A stretch of DNA of 48,023 nucleotides from Deltaproteobacteria bacterium. Lineage in GTDB: Bacteria; Myxococcota_A; Polyangia; JAAYKL01. Below, in pieces: positions 46,801-48,023 of this stretch. The number at the start of each line of letters is the position of its first letter. Position 1 is the stretch's first letter. Made by a program: the position numbers and the translations under genes. The stretch lies in the NCBI GenBank assembly GCA_030595125.1, contig JAUVDV010000040.1, forward strand, positions 1-48,023. Reading direction: 5' to 3'. Below the pieces are notes generated by a model, which was given only the letters and a program-made list of their open reading frames with translations, was not told the DNA's origin and searched no databases.

Positions 46801-46873
46801 CGGACCCGTCACGTTCATCCAGAGCCCGCCTCGCCATAGCCTTGCGACGGCGGGTAGCATGTCCTCTTGATCG
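46801..46873. repeat. Dispersed intergenic repeat, copy A (intron-free) with inserted hairpin
   Basis: Left part CGGACCCGTCACGTTCATCC (46801-46820) and right part GTCCTCTTGATCG (46861-46873) recur in the same order at 47842-47884. Copy A has about 30 extra bases between them: a palindrome, CCCGCCTCGC (46825-46834) pairing with GCGACGGCGGG (46844-46854) with one bulged base. Beyond 46873 the two copies share nothing. Confidence 0.75.
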
Positions 46874-46893
46874 CGAAGGCGGACAATCGTCAA

Positions 46894-46956
46894 GCAGGAC
46901 AACCAACCCCAATAAATGTTAAAATGCTCCCACGTTCAAAACGAAAGGCTTGGGGC
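46894..46956 (+). promoter_or_regulatory. Promoter-leader module of the leucine-rich lipoprotein gene
   Basis: GCAGGACAA (46894-46902), 17 bases, TAAAAT (-10, 46920-46925), GCT, CCCACG, TTCAAAACGAAAG, then nine bases to the ATG at 46957. Total length and the position of every block equal those of the module at 21200-21262. AGGACA 18 bp before TAAAAT would be the -35. Confidence 0.6.
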
Positions 46957-47790
46957 ATGAGGCGCGTGCTGTTGATAATGTCGACAATCGCGCTGGTTTG
47001 CGGCGGGTGCTCGAACGGCTCGTCGAGCAGTGACGGTGAAACCGATACCGGTCCGGTCGAGTGCAATCTGGGAGAGTACAGCGGCAGTTTCACCATTGGC
47101 ACACAATCGGATATTGCAGCCCTCGCGGGATACTCGTCGATCTCGGGAGATCTGGATGTCGACTGCCCTTCGTGCACCGACTTGGGCGAGTTGATTTGCC
47201 TCACATCGGTGGGCTGGGAATTGCGATTTTGGAACAACGCCTCCCTTACTAACTTGGACGGTCTTAGCGCTCTCACCTCTGTGGGCACGGCCTTGGTCAT
47301 CTACGACAACGCCTCCCTGACAAACTTGGACGGCATTAGCACCCTCACCTCGATAGTTAATAACTTGTACATCTCCGAGAACGACGCCCTCACCAACCTG
47401 AACGGTCTTAGCGGCCTCACCTCGTTGGGCGGGGACTTGAGAATCGCCAACAACGACTCCCTCACAACTCTGGACGGCCTGGGCGGGATCACCTCGGTAG
47501 GCTGGAATTTGTGGATCATTGAAAACGACGTCCTCACCGACCTTGACGGCCTGAGCGCACTCACCTCGGTGGGTGGCTTGGATATTGGGAACAACCCCAC
47601 CCTTACCAACCTGGACGGCCTGAGCGGCATCACCTCGGTGGGCGGGAATTTGCGCATCGACGACAACGACATTCTTCCCGACTGCGAGGCATGCGACCTG
47701 CTGGACCAGCTCACCAGTGGACCCACTTCGATAGATGTCCACGACAACCTCAACGACTCATGCACACCGGTTCCGGGGAGCTGTCCGTAA
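46957..47790 (+). CDS. Leucine-rich-repeat (receptor-L-like) lipoprotein
   Basis: A 277-residue surface lipoprotein. The signal peptide ends at lipobox VCGGC (Cys18), followed by a Ser/Asp-rich linker. The mature part holds about seven 24-residue repeats of the type NxxLTNLDGLSxLTSVGGxLxI, which should stack into a parallel beta solenoid resembling bacterial receptor-L-like domains. Flanking Cys pairs (CPSC and CEAC plus a late Cys pair) probably cap the solenoid. The ATG at 46957 is chosen because the signal peptide starts there and because the FG-GAP lipoprotein begins the same way (MRHLLLM against MRRVLLIM). The gene lies between two copies of a dispersed repeat. Probably cell-surface binding; no ligand is known. 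Confidence 0.88.
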   Translation: MRRVLLIMSTIALVCGGCSNGSSSSDGETDTGPVECNLGEYSGSFTIGTQSDIAALAGYSSISGDLDVDCPSCTDLGELICLTSVGWELRFWNNASLTNLDGLSALTSVGTALVIYDNASLTNLDGISTLTSIVNNLYISENDALTNLNGLSGLTSLGGDLRIANNDSLTTLDGLGGITSVGWNLWIIENDVLTDLDGLSALTSVGGLDIGNNPTLTNLDGLSGITSVGGNLRIDDNDILPDCEACDLLDQLTSGPTSIDVHDNLNDSCTPVPGSCP

Positions 47791-47841
47791 GGCGGTTTTT
47801 TTCTAAGAACTCGGGGTCTTTGGATCGGGGCCCTGCGACGT

Positions 47842-47884
47842 CGGACCCGTCTCGTTCATCCGCCGTAGCCTGTCCTCTTGATCG
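47842..47884. repeat. Dispersed intergenic repeat, copy B (interrupted by the intron)
   Basis: CGGACCCGTCTCGTTCATCC (47842-47861), a short joint CGCCGTAGCC, and TGTCCTCTTGATCG (47871-47884) repeat copy A at 46801-46873. On the minus strand it is the 3' exon of the group II intron, which begins at 47885. Confidence 0.75.
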
Positions 47885-47959
47885 GTAGAGTAGGCTCGGG
47901 ACGTTCCCGTCCCGAGCCCCTCGCCAGATCCGTACTTGGAGATTTCCACCATACGGCTC
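47885..47959 (-). ncRNA. Group II intron domains V and VI
   Basis: Domain V is 47959-47927 (33 bases): GAGCCGTAT, distal GGTG-GAAA-TCTCC, a two-base AA bulge, then GTACGGATC; it contains the catalytic AGC triad (47958-47956). Domain VI pairs GAG (47922-47920) with CTC (47890-47888), leaves the single bulged A at 47891, and continues with GGCTCGGGAC/GTCCCGAGCC (47918-47909, 47902-47893) closing a six-base loop. The bulged A is the seventh base from the intron end, where the branch-point adenosine lies in known introns. Confidence 0.8.
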
Positions 47960-48023
47960 CTCCGCTGACATGACTCACTGGGCTGGCCCCCAGAACACCT
48001 TTTGGGACTGGGGGACCGGGAGA
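47885..48023 (-). mobile_element. Group II intron, 3' end (continues past the window)
   Basis: Read leftward, the last 139 bases have the layout of a group II intron 3' end: a stem (CTGGGGG 48008-48014 with CCCCCAG 47987-47993) that may belong to domain IV, then domain V, a 5-base linker and domain VI, ending in CTAC at 47885. The open frame with a stop just before domain V (TGA at about 47977-47979) may be the end of a reverse transcriptase, but too little is visible to say. The 5' end and any maturase gene lie beyond 48023. Domain V has a non-standard G:A opposition in the AGC triad and a mismatch in the distal stem, so the copy could be decayed. Confidence 0.75.

Follow-up and report, generated by a model that had tools for sequence, protein, structure and literature searches.

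Domain V of group II introns holds the catalytic metals through its catalytic triad and two-base bulge, and these elements have counterparts in the spliceosome. The triad strand reads AGC or CGC, and the introns are known to use three types of target: homing sites, terminators and attC sites (reviewed in PMC4424553). Among the described systems closest to the intron reported here are the endonuclease-minus introns designated unclassified/g2, a group that includes introns from Myxococcus and Sorangium (M.xa.I1 and Sg.ce.I1; PMC3552965). It lies at the end of the window, the 48,023-nucleotide stretch of DNA analysed, which is a complete contig (C170) of a 5.39 Mb genome in 203 contigs (G000). 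Like the unclassified/g2 introns, it has a Myxococcota host and, judged from its lineage, a reverse transcriptase (RT)/maturase of a type without an endonuclease domain, and the D5-D6 and D1 regions of its family match the Rfam models RF00029 and RF02005, respectively. Unlike them, it targets a dispersed palindrome and begins with GAUGCG. The g2 group of Toro and Martinez-Abarca (2013), as described there, is a plausible home for it.

Group IIC introns, including the IIC-attC introns (PMC4424553, PMC7923331), also combine an inverted-repeat target with an RT that has no endonuclease domain. In contrast to the window intron, however, they carry a CGC triad and recognise an IBS1 of 3-4 bp, with an upstream hairpin replacing IBS2, and the IIC-terminator introns insert after the hairpin whereas the window intron inserts inside it. 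Membership of group IIC was rejected on the basis of the AGC triad and of the 6-bp IBS1 and 6-bp IBS2. In P. putida KT2440, two of the nine copies of a group II intron lie in REP elements (table in PMC1525189), whereas all six visible 3' ends of the window intron lie in a palindrome that its EBS sequences match. This table entry is the one precedent for a REP-targeted group II intron found in our literature search, which left subscription papers mostly outside its reach. Insertion sequences of the IS110, IS3 and other families likewise exploit dispersed palindromes as multicopy targets (PMC1525189), but these are DNA transposons, while the window element would be a retroelement guided by intron RNA.

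We propose, with high confidence, that the window ends in the 3' end of a mobile group II intron of an endonuclease-minus lineage, which would retrohome through EBS/IBS pairing to TTGTCCGCCGTCG/C (the slash marks the insertion point). From its sequence, the element is a genuine and probably active group II intron. Its main interest is the dispersed palindromic homing site, together with lineage-wide departures in the catalytic core. Matching the guide to a dispersed palindrome would offer an RNA-guided retroelement a simple route to multicopy status, and the finding of changed core bases at the triad pair and bulge in a family that has nevertheless apparently multiplied recently makes the base identity needed at these positions testable.

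Domains V and VI and their copies

RF00029, the Rfam model of group II D5-D6, matches positions 47885-47961 of the window (minus strand) over its full length with 41.1 bits (E = 8.7e-05), just exceeding the gathering score of 40. The 77-nt region has a folding energy of -43.8 kcal/mol (z = -6.9 relative to shuffles), and the occurrence of the same sequence at five more contig edges rules out chance. The original prediction of a group II intron 3' end at this edge, made from the letters alone, is thereby borne out. Domain V comprises 33 nt, GAGCCGUAUGGUGGAAAUCUCCAAGUACGGAUC, at 47927-47959 (minus strand), exactly where it had been placed, with an AGC triad strand and a two-base bulge. The prediction had called it textbook, which it is not quite: the bulge is AA (47937-47936) and not the consensus AY, and in the comparative pairing the loop becomes an AAA triloop with a closing G.U pair, or alternatively a GAAAU pentaloop, in place of a clean GAAA tetraloop. 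In the triad pair, G3 (47957) faces A31 (47929), as had been noticed. A UGG linker (47926-47924) leads into the domain VI helix (47888-47922, minus strand), in which A47891, the putative branch point, is bulged at position -7 from the intron 3' end (47885, ...CUCUAC). This agrees with the prediction and with the general rule that domain VI bulges an A 7-8 nt from a 3' end in AY. A mechanical call also yields the foreseen 73-codon open reading frame (ORF) across D5-D6 (47750-47971, minus strand), which overlaps the structured RNA and is spurious; a protein-only annotation pipeline could call a false gene here.

Five other contigs of the genome (C70, C71, C86, C111 and C166) end in the window's 138-140 terminal bases with zero differences. 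The intron 3' end is thus present at least six times, with different flanking DNA at each copy. All six copies break off within 2 bases of one point, approximately one assembler k-mer length into the repeat, the contig edge lying here because the assembler met multicopy sequence. The intron body (about 2 kb) is absent from the genome bin, where an RT search gave two further introns, on C65 and C99, and no more, and consequently no single contig connects the 5' and 3' ends. In Deltaproteobacteria bacterium CSMAG_220 (G001), a member of the same genus, a 3' end 95% identical to that of the window is present, as are both intron ends, and its visible copies again lie at contig edges or close to them. 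In a further congener, G002, neither intron end was found, and the palindromes are present but empty. Since the six visible copies are identical, we argue for a recent spread of the intron family to at least six places in the window's genome.

The intron 5' end, exon recognition and the reverse transcriptase

Intron 5' ends were searched for using the left exon expected from empty sites. Five contig edges of the genome (C2, C89, C117, C201 and C114) carry such an end, the left exon running into GATGCGACCAGGCAATGCTGG. All five introns begin GATGCGACCAGG, four of them without differences over the 122 nt shown, and each is preceded by the left arm TCCGCC(G/T)TCG. The same left-exon/intron junction is found in CSMAG_220. 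RF02005, a D1-D4 model, matches the diverged C201 copy, the longest of the five, with 72.1 bits (cut-off 49), while the other four stretches, cut by the contig edge, score below the gathering scores of the Rfam group II D1-D4 models. In the C201 copy (L199/L110), D1 is followed by repeated GGGTAGGGGTCAGACCC units.

EBS1 and EBS2 were read in this one diverged copy. Intron position 234 holds EBS1, CGACGG, and position 207 holds EBS2, GGACAA; these are exactly complementary to IBS1, CCGTCG (-6 to -1), and IBS2, TTGTCC (-13 to -8), respectively, each pairing at 6/6 positions; shuffled targets pair equally well at both sites in 993 of 200,000 trials (0.5%). In the related introns of G007, G013 and L115, the EBS1 position (232, 231 and 228, respectively) pairs with the intron's own, different exon, G-U pairs being counted. 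This covariation of EBS1 across relatives fixes the register and hence the 5' end. In the introns of G006, which belongs to another genus of the family and whose copies may be incomplete, no EBS1 pairing could be assigned.

Placed by the empty sites and the EBS1 register, the 5' end reads GAUGCG. The prediction of a GUGYG boundary was therefore right in that a 5' end exists, on other contigs, but wrong as to its letters. GAAGCG is the 5' end in G007 and G013, and GUGCG or GUGUG ends occur within the intron's own clade (L115, with GUGCG, L117 and L119). Because accepted members also break GUGYG, one of them beginning with UUGCG (PMC7923331), the intron is classed as a variant within group II rather than as a separate kind.

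The part of the RT/maturase seen in the window comprises its C-terminal 15 residues, LPVPQSQKVFWGPAQ, with the stop codon (47975-48022, minus strand), cut by the contig edge. They correspond to the RT end on contig C33 of CSMAG_220, where 125 RT residues end in LPAPNSHKVFWGPAQ and a stop codon, and full RTs are present in relatives. The expectation of an RT and a 5' end on the missing side was accordingly borne out in part, by this C-terminus and by the 5' ends on other contigs, but the RT body is absent from the bin. Three RTs of the lineage score above the cut-off of TIGR04416 (NCBIfam) and match Pfam RVT_1, and none of these three contains an HNH endonuclease domain. Judged from these homologues, the RT lineage of the window intron is of the endonuclease-minus type.

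The palindromic target

The 3' exon in the window (47852-47884, minus strand) corresponds to the right-hand half of a palindrome with dispersed copies (CGATCAAGAGGACAG GCTACGGCGGATGAACGA). In all six 3' copies of the genome the 3' exon is such a right half, C-(loop)-GCTATGGCGGATGAACGA or a close variant, the right arm on C111 reading GCTATGGCGAGAT. Unoccupied palindromes of the same genome read TTGTCCGCCGTCG/CCCTTCGGGCTATGGCGGATGAACGA with a loop of varying length, and empty palindromes of the form TTGTCCGCCGTCG/C...GCTATGGCGGATGAACGA are found both there and in G002. The intron thus enters the left arm of these dispersed hairpins, at TTGTCCGCCGTCG/C, a setting that the original prediction had no means of seeing. 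The right arm gives 33 matches at up to 3 mismatches (13 exact), against four for a reversed control, and the REP-like palindrome is present in approximately 25-30 copies. Five palindromes were folded as single strands of DNA: three clearly exceed shuffles in stability (z = -2.3, -4.1 and -5.0), one does so weakly (z = -1.7) and one does not (z = 0.4). By eye, the palindrome is neither an integron attC site, its ends misfitting the R''/R' consensus, nor an intrinsic terminator, there being no following T-run.

In the proposed mechanism, the spliced-out intron RNA would enter the DNA target TTGTCCGCCGTCG/C by reverse splicing, with the EBS2/IBS2 and EBS1/IBS1 pairings as its guide. The intron RT would then copy the inserted RNA, probably primed at a replication fork. 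With the left arm of a multicopy palindrome as its target, one specificity would give many sites, presumably outside genes. An alternative is that the shape of the hairpin is recognised beyond its sequence, as terminators and attC sites are by group IIC introns. The right arm is present in seven of the eight known 3' exons of G000 and CSMAG_220, the insertion point lies one step above a conserved C-T mismatch, within the apical stem, and the G007 intron likewise sits within an inverted repeat, all of which would suit recognition of shape. However, the 13-nt target, where it occurs exactly, mostly lies within a palindrome anyway, so that base pairing alone predicts the same pattern. Moreover, the eighth 3' exon, at the C121 site of CSMAG_220, has no right arm, and the pairing is long (12 bp), unlike that of group IIC. 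We consider recognition of shape unlikely. Pairing between the EBS sequences and the left arm suffices to account for the insertions. A wider proposal would join such structure-aided homing of the window's branch to REP-like hairpins, which would add a fourth specificity to homing sites, terminators and attC, with a broad active lineage possessing a non-canonical core (a G.A triad pair, a UU or AA bulge and, in the window's branch, a GAWGCG 5' end). This combination seems unlikely.

Positions 46874-46886 of the window (minus strand) and their neighbours form a cluster of nested palindromes belonging to this family, at the start of a repeat-containing ORF (46867-47790). A second repeated element, whose ends read GAGGGTGTCG, lies in the same palindromes on C23 and C24 (L195 and L196, from the edge to about 129), C146 (L047) and C168 (L048), and therefore other mobile DNA seems to use the hairpins too. 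The genome encodes six short (about 141 aa) Y1 (IS200-like) transposases, on C7, C80, C162, C134, C198 and C91, and two longer ones (about 300 aa), on C83 and C64, that are possibly RAYT-like. In G006, four 5' ends of the related intron (L238, L243, L245 and L246) are preceded by an ATT sequence resembling GTCAATCCAGCCC(A/C/T). From this shared upstream sequence, the G006 intron also seems to have a target that is repeated and dispersed.

Catalytic-core variants across the lineage

The loci gathered, nearly all from the RT lineage of the window intron, contain 48 distinct D5s. The triad pair is G.A in 35 of these, G.U in eight, A.G in four and G-C in one, and the two-base bulge is AC in 26, UU in 12, AA in five and UA in three. 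The helix pairs of the lineage's D5s covary, 31 cells being changed on both sides, compared with 11 in shuffles. The exact D5 pattern was not found in viral contigs. A tree of RTs, made from the C-terminal 121 columns and with CSMAG_220 standing for the window's lineage, places that lineage in a clade of 16 RTs with support of 100/100. Its members come from Myxococcota, Acidobacteriota, Lentisphaerota and Pseudomonadota, and it holds most of the UU, AA and UA bulges and both G.A and G.U triad pairs. This distribution over D5s and RTs indicates that the core departures are lineage traits.

The G opposite A in the triad had led the original prediction to suggest that the core may be divergent or dead. 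Divergent it is, as it departs from consensus. The case for a degenerating remnant is that consensus introns have G.U at this pair, that the bulge and the 5' end are off consensus as well, and that a decayed copy does exist (C201, with foreign repeats after D1). Yet the G.A pair, occurring in D5s from several phyla and at many loci with open RT frames, is by this comparison the commonest state of the lineage and not decay, and the identity of the six copies over 138 nt suggests a family that spread recently; a dead intron is thus very unlikely. Less credible still is that the repeated contig ends are chimeric contigs produced in assembly. Although the six 3' copies do stop within 2 bases of each other at about the k-mer length, their flanks differ while the position in the palindrome is always the same, and the same type of junction occurs in an independent genome, CSMAG_220. 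With departures that are traits of the lineage and zero divergence among the visible copies, we argue instead for recent activity of the intron, which may continue at present.

The two other introns of the genome differ from it in the core. In the C65 intron (L002, 8772-8848), AAC replaces AGC and a G lies opposite, an A.G swap also seen in L130, L227 and L232. The C99 intron (L012, 3699 bp) has a canonical D5, with G.U and an AC bulge. A serine-recombinase-like element bounded by inverted CTCCCACGCAATAGACAACTT apparently splits its RT gene, which resumes near the active-site region.
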